64,000 nt of DNA from assembly GCA_021815405.1 (NCBI GenBank), contig JAKAGV010000001.1:124001-188000 (forward strand). Reading direction: 5' to 3'. This DNA is from Bacteroidota bacterium (GTDB taxonomy: Bacteria > Bacteroidota > Ignavibacteria > Ignavibacteriales > Ignavibacteriaceae). The position numbers and the translations under genes were made by a program. Below, piece by piece: positions 5,508 through 13,452 of this stretch (position 1 is its first letter; each line of letters opens with the position of its first letter). Under the pieces are notes generated by a model that was not told the DNA's origin, did no database searches, and saw nothing but the letters and a program-made list of their open reading frames with translations.

Positions 5508-5865
5508 TAAAGTGGAGATTGGGATAGCGGTTTTTTAAAATTAGTTAGGATATTTAGGAAATTGAAATGGCTATTTGAAGAATGGAGTTGCCTATTTGAA
5601 GAATCGGAACAGCTATTTGAACAATTAGGATGCCTATTTGAAGAATTACCTTGTGAGTTTGAACAAATGGAATGGCAATTTGAAGAATTAGATCGGTAAA
5701 AATGTAAATTGGGGAGCCTATTTGTGATCTTATCTCACCTATTTGAAGAATTAACTATCCTAAAATGAAAATTAAGTCTGCCATTTGAATAGTATATCTT
5801 AGAATTTGAACAATTACCCGGATTATGTGACTTTAGTACTATCTTAAATGAATTAAAAACGAAGT
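5508..5865. repeat. Degenerate 21-bp tandem repeat, indel-free phase
   Basis: Units of the form CTATTTGAAGAAT-N8 recur with the TTTGA core at 5574, 5595, 5616, 5637, 5658, 5679, 5721, 5742, 5784 and 5805. These are all exact multiples of 21. Degenerate units fall at the intervening phases (5532, 5553, 5700, 5763, 5826, 5847). In one plus-strand frame the units read as heptads such as LFEEWSC, LFEQLGC, LFEELPC and QFEELDR, but stop codons (5508, 5697, 5766, 5793) break this frame and there is no start. I see no intact gene. The spacing equals seven codons, or two DNA helical turns. Confidence 0.75.
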
Positions 5866-5923: not shown

Positions 5924-6664
5924 TTAATTTTTCGAGGTAAATTTTAACTTACTTACCTGTTTATATTGAGGGCTGCCGGCGCCGTATACACTTTTAACAT
6001 AATCCTTTACTTTCTGTGCTACATCAACAAGCCCGGTAGTTTTAGTATATAAGACTCTGTCTCTTTCAATGCGGGCGTTATTAACGGCGGGGGTAAGATC
6101 TTTAACAGCTTTGTTTGTTGTTTTCATGTCTGTAAGAACTGCCGTTAAAGATTCAACAGTTAAATCGGTTTCGTTTGGTTTGTAGTTTGGCTGTCCTGAT
6201 AAAAGAGTAACAAGGCTGTTCATATTATCAGTACGGAGGTCGAAGCTCATCTGTGAAACCGAGATATTTTTAGAAGAGTCCGTTGCAGGTGTTTCAGGAT
6301 TTGTCGGCGGTGGATCTTCTTTACTTGATGACCGCTCGCCTTTTATCTTGTGAATGTAGGTTTCAGCATTTGAAACAATTTGTTCCGGAACGTCACTGGA
6401 ATTAAGAGCAGCTTTAACTCGTGTAACAAGTTTACTTAAAGGGCTGAAGGCTGCATTCCTTGCAGTTAATGCATTTTTGAATGGGAGCTCTGCATTTTTA
6501 AGAGCATCTAATGCATTTGCGGCAAGTGTTAAAAGTGAGTTTAGTGAAAGAATAGTAATTAAAGCTGATACGGGATTATATTTTGCGCCGAAGCCGACGC
6601 AGACTGCTATTAAGGCTTCAAAGTTCCCGACATTCTTTGCGTGCCCTGTTTCTGAGTTTGGCAT
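5924..6664 (-). CDS. Uncharacterised protein, YNPS-to-SPQYKQVS type
   Basis: A 246-residue protein with no signal peptide and no membrane segment. I recognise the layout as a recurring uncharacterised Bacteroidota-group protein but know no function. Two mostly helical halves (about 20-105 and 135-240) are joined by a Pro/Ser/Thr-rich linker (about 110-130: SSKEDPPPTNPETPATDSS). Conserved-looking wording is KYNPVSALITI (about 28-38), ISVSQMSFDLRTDNMNSL (about 133-150), YKPNETDLTVE, and a C-terminal SPQYKQVSKLKFTSK. The gene stands alone with its own terminator, downstream of which lies the 21-bp array. The linker suggests two similar domains in one chain, possibly a self-associating structural protein; this is a guess. 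Confidence 0.7.
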   Translation of the reverse strand: MPNSETGHAKNVGNFEALIAVCVGFGAKYNPVSALITILSLNSLLTLAANALDALKNAELPFKNALTARNAAFSPLSKLVTRVKAALNSSDVPEQIVSNAETYIHKIKGERSSSKEDPPPTNPETPATDSSKNISVSQMSFDLRTDNMNSLVTLLSGQPNYKPNETDLTVESLTAVLTDMKTTNKAVKDLTPAVNNARIERDRVLYTKTTGLVDVAQKVKDYVKSVYGAGSPQYKQVSKLKFTSKN

Positions 6665-6993: not shown

Positions 6994-7568
6994 GTTGTGA
7001 GTTGCTTTCAGAATTTTCTTTGACAATATTTAAAACAACGACCAGGCGTCAGCCTTGCAAAAGGTAACAGTTGTGAGTTGCTTTCAGAATTTTCTTTGAC
7101 AATATTTAAAACAACTGACGGCAGCTATGAGCCAAAGCCCTCGAGGTTGTGAGTTGCTTTCAGAATTTTCTTTGACAATATTTAAAACAACTTGTTCAAG
7201 AGATTGTACTTTTCCATTTAAGTTGTGAGTTGCTTTCAGAATTTTCTTTGACAATATTTAAAACAACGCGGGTGTAAAACAGGTCTGATGGCTTTAAGTT
7301 GTGAGTTGCTTTCAGAATTTTCTTTGACAATATTTAAAACAACATTAATGTAGTACTTTCAAAATCTGATCGGTTGTGAGTTGCTTTCAGAATTTTCTTT
7401 GACAATATTTAAAACAACAATGCAATTAAGAATGCACCCGGTTTGCAGTTGTGAGTTGCTTTCAGAATTTTCTTTGACAATATTTAAAACAACTCAACAA
7501 ATGATATTGACGTTAGCTCAAAGTTGTGAGTTGCTTTCAGAATTTTCTTTGACAATATTTAAAACAAC
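6994..7568 (+). CRISPR. Type II-C CRISPR array, 8 repeats and 7 spacers
   Basis: Eight identical 46-bp repeats start at 6994, 7070, 7146, 7222, 7298, 7373, 7448 and 7523. Each begins GTTGTGAGTTGCTTTCAGAA and ends TATTTAAAACAAC. The seven spacers are 30, 30, 30, 30, 29, 29 and 29 bp long. The plus strand is the crRNA strand: the first 23 bases of the repeat pair with the anti-repeat of the tracrRNA at 13501-13522. No repeat is degenerate, so the trailer end cannot be told from repeat decay. No spacer resembles sequence I noticed elsewhere in the window. An open reading frame across the last repeats is only the translation of the repeat. Confidence 0.98.
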
Positions 7569-7643: not shown

Positions 7644-7700
7644 AAACTCATCCTCTTTCTCTCCTTCTCTTTTTAAGAGAAGGGGGTGGGGGTTGAGTTA
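7644..7700. repeat. GAACTCA-type hairpin element, copy 1 (short)
   Basis: AACTCATCC opens and GGTTGAGTT closes a short element with the hairpin CTTCTCTT-TTT-AAGAGAAG (7664-7671/7675-7682). It lies between the array and cas2 and overlaps the cas2 stop codon (complement of 7698-7700). It belongs to the family described at 8040, 8522 and 9594. As a hairpin between convergent transcripts (crRNA on plus, cas operon on minus), it could also act as a two-way terminator. Confidence 0.65.
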
Positions 7701-8030: not shown

Positions 8031-8039
8031 AAGCGTTGG

Positions 8040-8135
8040 GAACTCATCCCCCGACCCCTTCCCTTGCGAAGGGAAGGGGTGCAATTTCTGAGTTCCCCCT
8101 CTCTTCTCAAGAGAGGGGGTTAGGGGGTGAGTTCC
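8040..8135. repeat. GAACTCA-type hairpin element, copy 2 (full, two hairpins)
   Basis: The element opens with GAACTCATCCCC and closes with GGGGGTGAGTTC. It holds two near-perfect hairpins: CCCCTTCCCTT-GCG-AAGGGAAGGGG (8055-8079) and CCCCCTCTCTT-CTC-AAGAGAGGGGG (8095-8119). The right 35 bp (8101-8135) are repeated exactly at 8557-8591. It fills the gap between cas2 and the DUF559 gene and supplies the last codons and stop of that gene. It aligns with the reverse complement of the copy at 9594-9678. Confidence 0.8.
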
Positions 8136-8506
8136 TTTTCAATTTGCTGTAATACTTTGTTTATATCTTTCAATACTTCCTCATTCTTAAATCTTATTAC
8201 TTTAATGCCCAATAAGTTTATAACCTCAGTTCTTAATGCATCTTTATCTATTTGGTTAGCATGGTATCCGCCGTCTATTTCAATTACCAATTTATTCTCA
8301 AAGCAATAGAAGTCCGCTATATAAAAAGTTTCTATACCCAGCAGATCATAAAAAAGAGGAAACTGCCTATAAAATTTTTTGCTGAGTAATTTTCGGTTCC
8401 TAAGTCTTTGCCACAATCTGTCTTCTGCTTTTGTTGAGTTTTTTCTTAGTTCTCTGCATAAAGTTTGCGCAACCAATATTAGTTTAGGATTTTTAGATAG
8501 ACTCAT
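8120..8506 (-). CDS. DUF559 (VSR-like) endonuclease inserted in the cas operon
   Basis: A 128-residue PD-(D/E)XK-fold nuclease of the DUF559 family, related to very-short-patch-repair endonucleases. The N-terminal ELRKNSTKAEDRLWQRLRNRKL and FYRQFPLFYDLLGIE are family hallmarks. The catalytic core is IADFYCFENKLVIEIDGGYH, giving Asp65-X10-Glu76-X-Asp78. IKVIRFKNEEV closes the fold. The start is the ATG at 8506, preceded by AAAGGAG; the longer open frame is translated hairpin repeat. The last residues (ELTP) and the stop are encoded by the flanking hairpin element. It lies between cas1 and cas2, not a standard II-C component, so it looks like a cargo or mobile cassette rather than a CRISPR gene. 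A role in adaptation is not excluded. Confidence 0.88.
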   Translation of the reverse strand: MSLSKNPKLILVAQTLCRELRKNSTKAEDRLWQRLRNRKLLSKKFYRQFPLFYDLLGIETFYIADFYCFENKLVIEIDGGYHANQIDKDALRTEVINLLGIKVIRFKNEEVLKDINKVLQQIEKELTP

Positions 8507-8521
8507 ATTACTACTCCTTTT

Positions 8522-8591
8522 GAACTCATCCCGTGTAATTTCGGTGCGTTCGCCTTCTCTTCTCAAGAGAGGGGGTTAGGGGGTGAGTTCC
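8522..8591. repeat. GAACTCA-type hairpin element, copy 3 (rearranged)
   Basis: It opens with GAACTCATCCC (8522) and closes with GGGGGTGAGTTCC (8591). The right 35 bp (8557-8591) are identical to 8101-8135 and contain the CTCTT-CTC-AAGAG hairpin; the left hairpin of the full element is replaced by unrelated sequence. On the minus strand, its distal end GAGTTCAAAAGGAG gives the DUF559 gene its Shine-Dalgarno site. With copy 2 it flanks the DUF559 gene as direct repeats. Confidence 0.8.
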
Positions 8592-8598
8592 CATGTGG

Positions 8599-9579
8599 TT
8601 AAGCGGTGTGTTCATACATATCCGGATACAATATTTTCCTCGCTTCCCCCGCAAAGCATTTTGCAAGCGAAGCCGTTGTACGCTGTACACCTACCATCAA
8701 TGGACTCCTTTCGCCGTCTATTATTATTTCAATTACCGGTATTTCAAGAAGCTGCTTTTTTATTGAAGTGCTCAGCTCCTCAAAGTCCTCGCCGTTATTT
8801 ACTACCTCTAAAACAATTTTATCTACATAAGGACGGAACGGTTCCATTATATCGTCGGCAAGGCAGTATGCGTTATATTTATTATGATGATGAATACCCA
8901 GTGTAGGCAGTAAACCCGAAGCGACAAGCGCGCGCGCTACTATTGCCCTTAATACAGCATACCCGTAATTCAAAAGATTATTAGGCGGCATTCCGTACCG
9001 ATCTCTTTTAAATTCAAGTTCACCGGGAAAAAGATTTCCCCAGTAATATGCAGCGGCTCTTCCCTCAAAATTATCCGGGTCACCCGAGCGTACATCCTTT
9101 GCCCATTTAAGCATGTTAACAACTTTTATTTTATTCTTGTTTAACAGCCATGCCTGGTTCTTAATCTTTGCAGCGATTGTCTGCTGCCATAATTGTTTTC
9201 TTAATGGTACCGAGCTTTCAATTTGTGCCTGAAATCTTTCGCTTTGAATTTGATTAACCGATAACGGCAAAAACAATCCTACTGGTAAATGGGAGTTATC
9301 GCACGAAACAACAGCAGTATTATTTTCAAGAAGGGAAGAGAGCAGTCCTTGTGTAATTGTTATCTGACCGGAGTCTAAAATTATTATTCCAATATCTTCA
9401 ATAGGTATGGAGTTTTGATTTGATCTGTTTTTGTATTTATCATTTTTATCGGGTTCATCGGGCGGGTCATCTTCAGCATTAGATTTATCGTTTCCGTTGC
9501 CGGGTAACTTTATTATTAGCTGGTCGTCTTTTTTACTTAGGTATGCCGGGTTCCCAAAATATAATGTTCGTTTAATCAT
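8599..9579 (-). CDS. cas1: CRISPR-associated endonuclease Cas1
   Basis: A 326-residue Cas1 integrase of type II-C. The family core is intact: Glu172 in DNFEGRAAAYYW, His230/231 in LPTLGIHHHNKYN, and Asp242/243 in LADDIMEPFRPYVDK, which form the metal site. The N-terminal beta domain has IPIEDIGIIILDSGQITIT (58-76). An unusual hydrophilic Asn/Asp/Pro/Lys-rich stretch of about 30 residues (27-56) lies between beta strands where homologues have a short loop. The start ATG is preceded by AAAAGGA, supplied by the end of the hairpin element at 9594. It is co-oriented with cas9, whose stop is 112 bp upstream. Confidence 0.95.
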   Translation of the reverse strand: MIKRTLYFGNPAYLSKKDDQLIIKLPGNGNDKSNAEDDPPDEPDKNDKYKNRSNQNSIPIEDIGIIILDSGQITITQGLLSSLLENNTAVVSCDNSHLPVGLFLPLSVNQIQSERFQAQIESSVPLRKQLWQQTIAAKIKNQAWLLNKNKIKVVNMLKWAKDVRSGDPDNFEGRAAAYYWGNLFPGELEFKRDRYGMPPNNLLNYGYAVLRAIVARALVASGLLPTLGIHHHNKYNAYCLADDIMEPFRPYVDKIVLEVVNNGEDFEELSTSIKKQLLEIPVIEIIIDGERSPLMVGVQRTTASLAKCFAGEARKILYPDMYEHTA

Positions 9580-9593
9580 AATTATTTCCTTTT

Positions 9594-9678
9594 GAACTCA
9601 CCCTAAATCCCTCTCTTACAAAGAGAGGGACTTTTAAAACCCCTTCCCTTTACAAGGGAAGAGGCAGGGGATGAGTTC
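9594..9678. repeat. GAACTCA-type hairpin element, copy 4 (full, inverted)
   Basis: It opens with GAACTCACCC and closes with GGGGATGAGTTC. Hairpins are CCCTCTCTT-ACA-AAGAGAGGG (9609-9629) and CTTCCCTT-TAC-AAGGGAAG (9643-9661). The order of the two hairpins is reversed relative to copy 2, and the reverse complement of this copy aligns with copy 2 over its full length. It occupies the whole cas9-cas1 gap and contains no open frame, so it is a solo element. Confidence 0.8.
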
Positions 9679-9690
9679 ACACCGCCGGTT

Positions 9691-12600
9691 TTATGTTGCC
9701 GAAACAATTTCTCCCAAATGATTTAATTTAATTTTGTGTGGATTTAGTAATTCTAATGATCCTAAACTTTGTACTTGATAAAATCTTTTACTAGCTCTTG
9801 AATTATTATCGTCATTAAGTTGTGTTTCCAAATGATGACGGAAAAATATTTCCATTTGCTTCCCATTGTAAAATATTTTTTGAACGCGGTATAAATAATT
9901 ACTTATTGATTTGTAATCATTATTAGAAGCTACTTCCTCATACATCTCATCATTCATTCCAAGTATAAACATTTCATTTTGCTGAAAGCTTTCAACATAT
10001 GTCCATTTGCTATCCGGTAATTTTTCGAGGAAACTTTCAGGATATTTATCTTCATCTAAAAGAATTTTATCAATTACTTCGACCGGATTTTTTATAATGA
10101 TTGGTAAGTCGTATTTCTTTCTTTCTACTGCATGCCAGAATGAGCAAATACTTAATTGTTTATTGCCTTGTTCATCTAAATAAATTGCAAGGTGATGATT
10201 GTTGCCCGGTTTTACAAAACCAATTTCCTTTCCGCTTTCATCCTTCTTAACGGGTTCTACAGCGGAGAGACCTGTAAAACATCTAACTGTTTTTATGGGA
10301 ATTTTTAATTCTTCGTTGTACCAAACGGGATTGTTTTCCAAATCTTTAAATGCCTCTTTTGTTTTTAGATAGTTTCCGTCTTTATCATATAATCTATTTT
10401 TAATCTTTTCTTTTATGGTTTTATCAATTACGTAACTAAGAACCCTAAGTGCTTTTTCTTCATTTTCTTTACCATCAAACAACATACCTTGTCCGGCACC
10501 AAGAGGATATTTAATAACAATTTCTTCTTTATAACATGTGCCATATTGAAGAATTTTAGTTTTGTCTTTATCTAAAAATATAGGTTCTTTCTTTAGAGAG
10601 GCGGTTGCTTTCTTAACATCATTATTAAATAAATTGAGTCTCTCTTCAACAAGATTTTTTATGTAAGGCTTAAAAATTAATTCGGGATTTTCAAAAAGAT
10701 ATTTCACCGGTTTTTCTTTTTCTATTGTTTTTATTTTACCATATACACTTTCTTCACTTAGTGAACCTCTCGGTATTATTATACCTGTTTGGGCTACAAT
10801 TTTTTTACCGCCCTTTTTAACTTTTCTTTTGCCGATTGAGGCAACCTTCTTACCAGGCTTAAAAGAAACTAAAATCTTTTCTGCTTCTTTTTCTACTTCT
10901 TTAGTAGTAAAAGGTTTAACTGATAATATATAGTTTTCCAATAAATTTTTTCTCTTATCAAAATTATATTTAGCAGACTCAATCTCTTTCATAATGTCAT
11001 TGCGTACCTTGCTGCTGTTAAGTTTGTTGAACCTTTGAATGTACCCCTGCTTAGTACATGCAATGGTAAGGGCGTCAATAGCATGATGCCTGTGGTCGTC
11101 TCGTTTTGACCAATCTTTAATATTTTCTTTTTTATCAACACTTCCATCATTATTAATTTCAATTGTTTCCGTTAATCCGAGTTCTCGGTATTTGGGCAGT
11201 TGTAAGTTCATTAATACATCATCCCATCCCCAAAGGTGTCTTAATTCTGATGTCACGTTTCCACTTGTAGCCCAAACATTATAGCAAATGCTTTGCAATA
11301 TTTCACGAGCTTTTCTTGAAATGTATTGAGTTTGACGTAATTGCCTATCGATGAAATCATTAGGAATTTTATCTCCCGGCATAAGTAATTTATCCCTTTT
11401 TGTTTTACCGATAATATGATTTTTGAAAAGCGTATTTATTCTTTCCACATAATCATTAAATTCCACCTCTGATTTTGAACGCATAAAATCAAAAGCTGTC
11501 TGGTCTTTTTTGTTTGCATTACACTTCCTATGGGCTAAAGTTTTATTGCTCTGTGAATCATCAAATAATTTAGATTTCGGAATTATGTGTTCAACCTCTA
11601 CTTCTTCTCCAAGAATTGCTGCGGTAAATGAAATTGGCTGTCCGCAATATATGCATATCGCATTCTGTTTTTTTTCGTCATTAGAAATTTCATGAAAAAG
11701 GCGCCATTTAATAATGTTGTTTCTTGTTGCCCTTAATCCGAATTCAGCCAATTCACGTTCTATTATTTTATTTTCTCGTTCCCTTTCATTTAGGCTTTTA
11801 TAAGTTTCATTTCTTTCTTCCTTACTCTGTTTTAATTCTCTGGCAAGTTCTATTCTTATTTCTTCCGGTTTGCCATATCTATCTATAATTGTATTTACTA
11901 TATTCACCATTTGGTTAAGTATCTTTTCAACTACTGGCTGCCTTAAACTATTTTTCTCTATTGGCTTTAACTTATCCAATAATTTTCTTTCATAGTTTTC
12001 TTGTTTTGTTAAGGAATTAGAATGGTTATATCCAGCATAAGAACATGCATCGCTGTATATATCACCTTCCATTAGGAAAGGAAGAATTTTTCTAATTGCT
12101 CTATGAGATTTATTGCCGAAACCAAGCTTAGTAAAATCAAGCGATGATAATTTTTGTGCTGCATTTATTGGAAGATTGAAATTCTTGATTAATGCATTCT
12201 TACATTCTTCTTTATCGGAAATTGAATAAACTGTATGCCAAAGTTTGTAGTACGGCTGTTCTTCAACATTTGGCAAAACTATTTTTCTCTGTTTAGAATT
12301 AATTATTTCACCACTTTCTTTATCTATAAGATATCCTTCTTCGCCTTTTTCTTCTATTTCTATTTTGAGTTTAAAAAGATTTTCATATTGTGTTAACTCA
12401 TCAAAACAATTCATCATATCGACTTTAACTTTGTTACCCTGCAGACCATTTGCAAGTTGTTTATTGCCGTAAACTTCATCTTTCTTTAATTCAAGTATTT
12501 TCAATAACTCGGCATAACTTAATTTTTCATGAGTATCCATGTATTCAAATATCTTTTCCTTTTTTCCCAAAGATATTTCTATTTGCTCGCCTGTTTTCTT

Positions 12601-13452
12601 TTTTAATGAAATGTTATTTATCATTTCCCAGATTTTACCAACTTGGAATAATGGTGAGCTTTTAGGTGCTACATTGGGTCCTACGAATAATTCTTTCTCT
12701 CCTTCATTAATTTTAATAGTTGTCCAGAATCCTTCAAATTCACAAATAGAAACCAACCCTTTTTGAGATTTCAATTTTCTCTGATAGTAGATTATTTCGT
12801 CTCTAATTTTACTTATCAGATCATCTGTTAGTATTTCAGGATAATAATTTTGCTGGTTTTTTAGAATTGTATTGTATTCTTCAATGTAAGCTTCACGGGG
12901 AAATACTTGTTCTTTAATTCTGTAATGTTCATCATTAACTAATTCTTCATAGAATTTTTGTCCTATTGTTTTGCTTTCTTCTTTTAATTTTTCATATCTG
13001 CTTTTTACAGCGGCAACGTACTCTGTATCTTTTTTATCAAGATTGGCTTCGCTTCTACTGCTTTTATAACCTCTTTTTTGATTTAAATGCAATAGCACTC
13101 TTCCAATTTCTTTGAGCGATAATTGTTTATTAACTGCATCACTTCTAATTTCCCATAATTTAAGCTTATACAGCTTTATTAAATCAACATCCGGCAGCAT
13201 ATCATTCTGTTTAAGTATGGAAATAAGATTTTGCCGTCTTAGCTGATAACGATCGTAACCTTTTCTTTGTGTCCTTTTAGTTGTCCTCTTTTGGTTTTTT
13301 GAAATTGCATTTCCTTTGGTAAATTCATCTTTATCATCAGTAGTCAGCGGAATTATTCTGCTGCCCATTCCTAAAATTTTATTTTCTTCTTCATCAATTA
13401 GTGCCCATCCAATTGAAGAAACCCCCAAATCAAGTCCTAAAATTTTTTTCAT
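9691..13452 (-). CDS. cas9: CRISPR-associated endonuclease Cas9, type II-C
   Basis: A 1253-residue RNA-guided DNA nuclease with all catalytic parts intact. RuvC-I is ILGLDLGVSSIGWALID with Asp8. The Arg-rich bridge helix is KRTTKRTQRKGYDRYQLRRQ. RuvC-II is IRIELARELKQ with Glu535. HNH is EVEHIIPKSK with His622, framed by CIYC and HRKC zinc-knuckle-like pairs. RuvC-III is DDHRHHAIDAL with His789/His790 and Asp793. The C-terminal third contains VKPGNNHHLAIYLDE and the YRVQK...FRHHLET block typical of Bacteroidota-group II-C Cas9, presumably the PAM-interacting part. It is shorter than many enzymes of that group (about 1400 or more). There is no csn2 or cas4, hence II-C. The start has AAAAGG 8 bases upstream. 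PAM is not readable from sequence. Confidence 0.97.
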   Translation of the reverse strand: MKKILGLDLGVSSIGWALIDEEENKILGMGSRIIPLTTDDKDEFTKGNAISKNQKRTTKRTQRKGYDRYQLRRQNLISILKQNDMLPDVDLIKLYKLKLWEIRSDAVNKQLSLKEIGRVLLHLNQKRGYKSSRSEANLDKKDTEYVAAVKSRYEKLKEESKTIGQKFYEELVNDEHYRIKEQVFPREAYIEEYNTILKNQQNYYPEILTDDLISKIRDEIIYYQRKLKSQKGLVSICEFEGFWTTIKINEGEKELFVGPNVAPKSSPLFQVGKIWEMINNISLKKKTGEQIEISLGKKEKIFEYMDTHEKLSYAELLKILELKKDEVYGNKQLANGLQGNKVKVDMMNCFDELTQYENLFKLKIEIEEKGEEGYLIDKESGEIINSKQRKIVLPNVEEQPYYKLWHTVYSISDKEECKNALIKNFNLPINAAQKLSSLDFTKLGFGNKSHRAIRKILPFLMEGDIYSDACSYAGYNHSNSLTKQENYERKLLDKLKPIEKNSLRQPVVEKILNQMVNIVNTIIDRYGKPEEIRIELARELKQSKEERNETYKSLNERERENKIIERELAEFGLRATRNNIIKWRLFHEISNDEKKQNAICIYCGQPISFTAAILGEEVEVEHIIPKSKLFDDSQSNKTLAHRKCNANKKDQTAFDFMRSKSEVEFNDYVERINTLFKNHIIGKTKRDKLLMPGDKIPNDFIDRQLRQTQYISRKAREILQSICYNVWATSGNVTSELRHLWGWDDVLMNLQLPKYRELGLTETIEINNDGSVDKKENIKDWSKRDDHRHHAIDALTIACTKQGYIQRFNKLNSSKVRNDIMKEIESAKYNFDKRKNLLENYILSVKPFTTKEVEKEAEKILVSFKPGKKVASIGKRKVKKGGKKIVAQTGIIIPRGSLSEESVYGKIKTIEKEKPVKYLFENPELIFKPYIKNLVEERLNLFNNDVKKATASLKKEPIFLDKDKTKILQYGTCYKEEIVIKYPLGAGQGMLFDGKENEEKALRVLSYVIDKTIKEKIKNRLYDKDGNYLKTKEAFKDLENNPVWYNEELKIPIKTVRCFTGLSAVEPVKKDESGKEIGFVKPGNNHHLAIYLDEQGNKQLSICSFWHAVERKKYDLPIIIKNPVEVIDKILLDEDKYPESFLEKLPDSKWTYVESFQQNEMFILGMNDEMYEEVASNNDYKSISNYLYRVQKIFYNGKQMEIFFRHHLETQLNDDNNSRASKRFYQVQSLGSLELLNPHKIKLNHLGEIVSAT

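Follow-up and report, generated by a model that had tools for sequence, protein, structure and literature searches.

A DUF559 nuclease gene between hairpin ends in a type II cas operon: a candidate homing-endonuclease-like mobile element

Why does a gene for a DUF559 nuclease, framed by hairpins, stand between cas1 and cas2 in a CRISPR (clustered regularly interspaced short palindromic repeats) operon? The question is raised by a stretch of 64,000 nucleotides from an Ignavibacteriaceae genome of the phylum Bacteroidota (assembly GCA_021815405.1, contig JAKAGV010000001.1, positions 124,001 to 188,000), which we call the window and whose minus strand carries a type II CRISPR operon in the order cas9, cas1, DUF559 gene, cas2 and then CRISPR array. 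The answer that we favour, and consider probable though well short of certain, is that the unit at 8037-8593 is a small mobile element with one DUF559 nuclease gene and triplex-type hairpin ends, largely site-specific and homing-endonuclease-like, whose cutting and movement we infer. Because the enzyme family and the hairpins occur together in many bacteria, often inside other genes, the unit seems to be a mobile element of a little-known kind. It is a passenger in the cas operon, not a conserved gene of CRISPR adaptation, and has many other hosts.

The inserted unit and its enzyme

The unit and its parts are as follows.

8037-8593: entire inserted unit in the cas2/cas1 interval, with a 41-nt inverted repeat at its bounds; missing from related empty junctions
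8120-8506, minus strand: DUF559 (YcjD-like, PD-(D/E)XK superfamily) nuclease gene, 128 aa from ATG; PF04480
8040-8134: cas2-side hairpin doublet, 95 bp, GAACTCA...TGAGTTC, containing the last codons and stop of the DUF559 gene
8522-8590: cas1-side hairpin doublet, 69 bp, second hairpin degenerate
8100-8135, plus strand: exact direct repeat, copy 1, 36 bp
8556-8591, plus strand: exact direct repeat, copy 2, 36 bp
8095-8131, plus strand: BoxC/TM-like element with the potential for an intrastrand triplex, running from pyrimidine arm through loop, purine arm and TTA to a mirror purine strand
8553-8587, plus strand: second BoxC/TM-like element

At the outer ends, a repeat search found the 41-nt inverted repeat (8037-8077 and 8553-8593) to be 83% complementary. 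Each doublet is laid out as GAACTCA, hairpin, spacer, second hairpin and TGAGTTC, and in the orientation of the gene the order is doublet, DUF559, doublet. The two direct-repeat copies are identical, are offset by 456 bp (152 codons), and each makes up half of one doublet. An initial annotation, made from the sequence, had reported exact repeats at 8101-8135 and 8557-8591; these are present, and identity extends one base further left, to 36 bp. Its placement of the DUF559 gene in the cas1-cas2 interval was confirmed by the PF04480 match and the cas neighbours. Its further claim that the flanking elements supply parts of the gene stands for the 3' end, E-L-T-P-stop (GAACTCACCCCCTAA), in which the last four codons and the stop are derived from the repeat, and only in part for the ribosome site (AAAAGGAG), which follows directly after TGAGTTC and lies at the edge of the flanking element, outside the 35-bp repeat.

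The window protein matches PF04480 with an E value of 6.5e-33 (113.3 bits against a cut-off of 20.6). Its AlphaFold model (predicted local distance difference test score, pLDDT, 86) most closely resembles the Protein Data Bank folds 3hrl, a putative endonuclease (NGO0050), and 3r3p, the catalytic domain of I-Bth0305I, both of which were recovered by profile as well as by structure, 3r3p with an E value of 2.2e-4 in the profile search and 2.2e-4 in Foldseek. Weaker matches were to a homing endonuclease model in PADLOC (E 1.4e-4) and to methyl-directed restriction enzymes. Residues E28, D65, E76, D78, H82 and D89 are invariant in eight sequences, and their mapping to the EDxHD motif is our own reading and not a computed one. 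YcjD, for which Vsr is a profile match, has been assigned to the PD-(D/E)XK superfamily (PMC1189080), and two-metal hydrolysis is apparently used by EDxHD homing endonucleases (PMC3943268). Profile and structure both predict a nuclease fold, and the window protein is probably a DNA-cutting enzyme.

Hairpins and DUF559 across genomes

Orphan repeats of the BoxC/PIT/TM type have been known since the 1990s, and we know of no mobiliser for BoxC or intrastrand triplex repeats. The hairpins of the window consist of a pyrimidine arm, a purine arm and a one-sided purine tail that mirrors the purine arm; at 8095-8131 this third strand has 8/9 mirror matches and is joined by a TTA linker. Among 72 hairpins near DUF559 genes, 46 have a mirror tail of at least 7/9, compared with 4% when tails were shuffled. 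Judged by base order, the hairpins thus appear to share the intrastrand-triplex architecture of BoxC/TM, in which a triplex may potentially form. BoxC/PIT/TM elements are likewise built of pyrimidine and purine arms with a mirror third strand (Holder et al. 2015, PMC4666352), and the TTA second loop of the window copy is that of their type A (PMC4666352). The strict TMECO consensus of the same source, CCCTCNCCCN3-6GGGNGAGGGN3GGGNGAGGG (PMC4666352), is not matched by the window copy, because TT/AA stands where TMECO has CC/GG. Holder et al. 2015 (PMC4666352) report no association of the E. coli triplex motif with transposons, phages or plasmids, and their paper is not one of those that name DUF559.

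DUF559 genes elsewhere carry hairpins of this kind. We used 70 DUF559 loci, which are among the best-scoring matches rather than a random draw and of which several come from the same genome in some cases, and surveyed hairpin density at 40 of them over up to 10 kb on each side. In the 150 bp nearest the domain, hairpins with pyrimidine and purine arms reached 4.6 per kb; their density was 1.2 per kb at 150-300 bp and between 0.005 and 0.08 per kb beyond 1 kb. Put together, 69 such hairpins lay within 300 bp (2.9 per kb) and 22 beyond 1 kb (0.03 per kb), a difference of about 80-fold. For hairpins of other composition the density was 0.84 per kb in the nearest 150 bp and 0.26 to 0.46 farther out. 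The idea that the hairpins are ordinary terminators was rejected on these figures, since hairpins of other composition are only about 2.5-fold denser within 150 bp and those with pyrimidine and purine arms more than 100-fold.

A hairpin lay within 400 bp in 36/40 of these loci, on both sides in 20, as against 1/30 loci of RAYT transposases, the Y1 transposases of repetitive extragenic palindromic (REP) sequences (Fisher p 3e-14); the RAYT control loci were drawn from 39 genomes that include those of the 40 DUF559 loci. Under the same strict test a second DUF559 set gave 24/30, and three of its six misses (L029, L037, L047; loci, genomes and contigs are given L, G and C numbers) have shorter-stemmed versions by eye. 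Over both sets, 60/70 DUF559 domains have a hairpin within 400 bp, compared with 1/30 RAYT domains. The association extends beyond the Bacteroidota: 11/14 loci from Cyanobacteriota, Deinococcota, Alpha- and Gammaproteobacteria, hand-picked from 37 plasmid records, have a hairpin, with 2.2 hairpins per kb within 400 bp and 0.14 per kb at 1-3 kb.

At the level of whole genomes, we searched 395 genomes of the phylum for the pattern CCCTCTC(3-10)GAGAGGG and counted DUF559 matches with E below 1e-15 as strong. Such a match is present in 162/395. The pattern occurs in 96/162 of these genomes and in 38/173 of those without a match; 60 genomes with weak matches were excluded from the two-way tables, which ignore relatedness and include hairpins at DUF559 itself. 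In the order to which the window belongs, two or more pattern hits are found in 24/28 genomes with DUF559 and in 0/9 without. The source genome has five hits in 5 Mb, and confinement of the hairpins to its cas operon was ruled out, three of the five lying elsewhere (C11 twice, C31).

Genomes G390, G086, G125, G001, G371 and G087 contain 10 to 55 hairpins and no DUF559 match. In G371 several hairpins stand as inverted pairs about 90 bp apart, and in G390 some recur about every 203 bp.

Insertion sites, hosts and lineages

The surroundings of the unit in the window comprise:

9691-13452, minus strand: cas9, 1253 aa; TIGR01865, E 2.8e-154
9594-9678: gene-less, REPIN-like hairpin doublet of 85 bp in the cas9/cas1 interval
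8599-9579, minus strand: cas1 (type II); TIGR03639
7698-8030, minus strand: cas2; PF09827, TIGR01573; start codon read from the sequence
about 7644-7698: degenerate hairpin element after cas2
about 6994-7568: CRISPR array

For comparison we took the 30 best of 60 Cas1 matches and sought DUF559 at each locus with the window protein only (E up to 1e-4). DUF559 lies in the cas1-cas2 interval in 3/30, namely the window, L092 and L093, and the other 27 are without a recognisable DUF559. The strict hairpin scan was positive at 3/3 loci with the gene and at 3/27 without (L094, L096, L105). Among ten gaps read base by base, L090 (19 bp), L091 (8 bp) and L097 (11 bp) are short and free of hairpins. The DUF559 copy of L093 is interrupted, with two frames and a run of N, and L094, from the same genus, has a doublet at the slot with the gene absent. 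In a Cas1 tree, which has some long branches, a single clade for the three occupied loci was rejected (p 6e-8). L092 (G224) and L011 apparently come from one genome, which is represented by L011 in the DUF559 tree and by L092 in the Cas1 tree. The slot also receives other genes: a gene for a Y1/RAYT transposase, accompanied by REP-like palindromes of its own, in L089 (G267:C52; PF01797, E 7.2e-25) and GIY-YIG nuclease genes (PF01541) in L110 (G304:C1; E 3.7e-9) and L111 (G091:C26; E 3.7e-15), so that the tally over the 30 loci is DUF559 three, Y1 transposase one and GIY-YIG two. Since these three kinds of gene share the slot, single-gene nuclease elements seem to have a hot spot in the cas1-cas2 junction.

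A second site is methionine synthase, MetH. A MetH match was found in 76/80 genomes of four families; in eight, the two halves are 399-546 bp apart with DUF559 between them, in the linker preceding the B12 domain, and in the remaining 68 the halves are contiguous or almost contiguous. Pfam bears out this domain order in L066. Two same-genus pairs (G035/G333 and G361/G019) have one occupied and one empty metH, and the insert comes with its own hairpins; two empty linkers that we aligned (L175, L176) have none. C-rich and G-rich palindrome-like sequence flanks DUF559 on both sides in all eight occupied genes, as judged by eye.

Residence inside other genes is common. At 27/70 loci DUF559 lies within an uninterrupted stop-to-stop frame of at least 600 aa, lengths being limited by the stretch fetched. 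We scanned 13 host frames with Pfam, NCBIfam or both and joined the remaining group members by BLAST. The identified hosts are MetH, LeuS (L046 and L085, at different places), HsdR and a methylmalonyl-CoA mutase/MeaB fusion, followed by UvrD-type helicases, an Eco57I-type methylase and a PurQ-type FGAM synthase with DUF559 at its end; HsdM-like and other methylases are weaker matches, and the frame of L018 matched DUF559 only. The hairpins are translated within host frames, for example as PSPQPSPSGRG or LPFGEGRG. Pfam found DUF559 and no intein domain in seven host frames; introns were not searched for, and the frames are open through the insert. The HsdR frame of L055 (G263:C27) holds two nuclease domains, a GIY-YIG domain at residues 251-316 and DUF559.

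In a DUF559 tree of 83 rows and 108 columns, built by a quick search, the metH-borne (8), hsdR-borne (4) and cas1-cas2-borne (3) copies each form one clade, with support of 94, 99 and 98 in the Shimodaira-Hasegawa-like approximate likelihood ratio test (SH-aLRT); the 94 of the metH clade is below the level at which branches were starred. The hosts of the metH-borne and hsdR-borne copies belong to several families. We also built a MetH tree from 22 empty and 8 occupied loci, with 8 of 30 empty loci dropped because the motif was not found and with no locus fetched for further empty genomes of the 80-genome search. On this tree occupancy needs eight changes (at least five forced by starred branches), as many as shuffled labels need. 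Site-bound DUF559 lineages in scattered hosts are the behaviour of homing-endonuclease genes. Read from the trees and alignments, the lineages tied to the cas1-cas2 junction, to the MetH linker and to one place in HsdR would thus behave much like homing genes, being gained and lost there together with their hairpins.

Weighing the explanations

The homing-like reading implies a simple cycle. The DUF559 nuclease would cut an empty allele or hairpin DNA, and repair would then copy the element with its hairpins into the cut allele. Recombination between the direct repeats could delete the gene and leave a single doublet, perhaps as in L094 and at 9594-9678, and lone doublets are probably remnants or satellites. 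The hairpins might serve as a recognition site, as protection of the occupied allele, as a stop-free linker or as a second route of spread.

Most homing endonucleases, although not all, reside in a self-splicing intron or intein. I-Bth0305I and the EDxHD homing endonucleases share a related nuclease domain with DUF559, and their copies too are tied to conserved genes; I-Bth0305I is, however, a protein of mobile introns, and no intron or intein was recognised at the DUF559 loci. Very long DNA sites are bound by that multi-domain enzyme (PMC3943268). Rickettsia palindromic elements are palindromes that insert in frame into protein genes, and we know of no nuclease gene in them. As far as our searches go, the homing-endonuclease-like kind is known, and its combination with triplex-type hairpin ends and unspliced, in-frame residence is apparently undescribed. 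A survey of titles and abstract openings, with most subscription journals outside its scope, returned no published link of DUF559 to repeats, palindromes, homing or mobility.

Several observations weigh against the homing-like reading. Ten of the 70 DUF559 loci have no hairpin by the strict test. Family f30 has no association at genome level (8/19 against 3/10, p 0.69), 11/173 DUF559-free genomes have at least five CCCTCTC hairpins, and 18 loci of six hairpin-rich DUF559-free genomes yielded no DUF559. The idea that the orphan hairpins of these genomes mark some other enzyme was considered and set aside; some open frames recur at the 18 loci, several of them from overlapping loci, with one family in L158, L159 and L168. 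A target-site duplication could not be defined in the two same-genus MetH pairs. The four DUF559 copies that leuS carries at its editing-domain site do not group into one clade and need two changes, although the starred branches are compatible with a single origin. In three Deinococcus species (plasmids L205, L209, L214) DUF559 and hairpins stand at differing places of the same hpa (4-hydroxyphenylacetate) cluster. Inside the metH clade the DUF559 tree roughly tracks host taxonomy, and an old insertion with many losses from a common ancestor, rather than repeated gain, is possible. Finally, I-Bth0305I has a long multi-domain structure (PMC3943268), whereas DUF559 has little beyond the catalytic domain.

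Of the other accounts, the one that survives best, though we think it unlikely, is REPIN-like transposition, in which DUF559 or a host enzyme acting on single-stranded hairpins copies doublets and the gene-bearing form generally, and the fixed sites are merely the few that are tolerated. Like REPINs and their RAYT genes, the DUF559 system has palindrome doublets in gene-bearing and gene-less forms, and the short form, an inverted palindrome pair, is present at 9594-9678, in L094 and as the pairs about 90 bp apart in G371. The greater frequency of the hairpin pattern in genomes with strong DUF559 matches, both in the phylum and in the window's order, and the scatter of the leuS-borne copies also fit this account. 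Free transposition does not, however, predict that the metH, hsdR and cas1-cas2 lineages sort by insertion site, and five pattern hits in 5 Mb are few for a transposing repeat. The REP/RAYT comparison drawn by the initial annotation holds as an analogy and not as membership, because DUF559 is no Y1 transposase and the palindromes at RAYT loci are of other kinds, with this hairpin type at only 1/30; the lineages tied to sites are a further difference.

It is improbable that the DUF559 gene homes into pre-existing BoxC-like hairpins that are its target and no part of the element. The gene-less doublet that L094 keeps at the slot, in the same genus as L093, would suit this, but the empty MetH linkers L175 and L176 and the gaps of L090, L091 and L097 contain no hairpins.

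Slightly less probable still is that DUF559 serves the CRISPR or another defence operon as a functional accessory, either an adaptation helper or a restriction nuclease, with hairpins that only punctuate the operon. The gene does occupy the same place in three cas operons, several other hosts are defence genes (HsdR, HsdM-like, Eco57I-type, BREX-like) and the weak matches to methyl-directed restriction enzymes point the same way; set against this, 27/30 Cas1 loci have no recognisable DUF559, the L093 copy is interrupted, and the hosts include MetH, LeuS and methylmalonyl-CoA mutase. The adaptation helper in particular, which the initial annotation had offered as an alternative, was rejected on its occupancy of 3/30 loci and lacks support because the gene is patchily distributed and the three loci that have it do not form one clade on the Cas1 tree.

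Least probable of all is mobilisation of the hairpins in trans by a RAYT (Y1) transposase with DUF559 as passenger, for which five Y1_Tnp matches in the source genome and the L089 gene with its own palindromes in the same slot might speak, but which was rejected on the control, as this hairpin type is near only 1/30 RAYT loci and 6/39 genomes (G003, G062, G081, G130, G172, G218), all with a hairpin-bearing DUF559 locus, have no Y1_Tnp match.

The initial annotation's central proposal, that nuclease and hairpins form a mobile unit, is supported by the tie between DUF559 and hairpins and by empty cas1-cas2 sites: its expectation of such hairpins at DUF559 genes elsewhere was borne out at 36/40 and 24/30 loci, and with 27/30 Cas1 loci lacking a recognisable copy the gene is not conserved at this position. 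Two things go beyond what it foresaw: homing-like behaviour that is largely site-specific, and the resemblance of the hairpins to BoxC/triplex repeats.

More tentatively, and with less confidence than we place in the reading of the window itself, DUF559/YcjD nucleases may drive a bacteria-wide class of minimal elements with triplex-forming hairpin ends. Their homing would target fixed positions in housekeeping and defence genes, where they would sit in frame, free of stops and unspliced; BoxC/PIT/TM orphan repeats would then be gene-less remnants or satellites, and the reported instability around such repeats a footprint of cutting by DUF559. If so, a common nuclease family (162/395 genomes of the phylum; ycjD in E. 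coli) would gain a role as a selfish element, and BoxC/triplex repeats would gain a candidate enzyme, which may explain the origin of a long-known orphan repeat of E. coli. Homing would proceed without intron or intein, in hosts such as MetH and LeuS that appear to tolerate an internal nuclease domain, and genes inside cas operons should not automatically be credited with CRISPR functions.

E. coli ycjD is itself a DUF559 gene with a nearby BoxC copy and strain-variable presence (PMC12817139). In K-12, the start of a copy matching the TMECO consensus lies 168 bp behind ycjD; the locus is one of the three misses among the 14 loci from outside the Bacteroidota, having no strict-test hairpin within 400 bp. 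Where K-12 has ycjD at the sapF-fabI position (L152/L156), O157:H7 and ATCC 25922 have the eefRABCD efflux operon instead (cf. PMC12817139), so that the alternative allele is this operon rather than a cleanly empty site. The E. coli control genome gave no PF04480 match.

Two further features of the window lie on the far side of the CRISPR array. A 246-aa open frame without a Pfam match adjoins the array at 5924-6664 on the minus strand. At 5553-5816, degenerate repeats follow one another in a 21-bp register (TTTGAAGAATT...) with no listed open frame of 60 aa, and are perhaps a decayed coding repeat.
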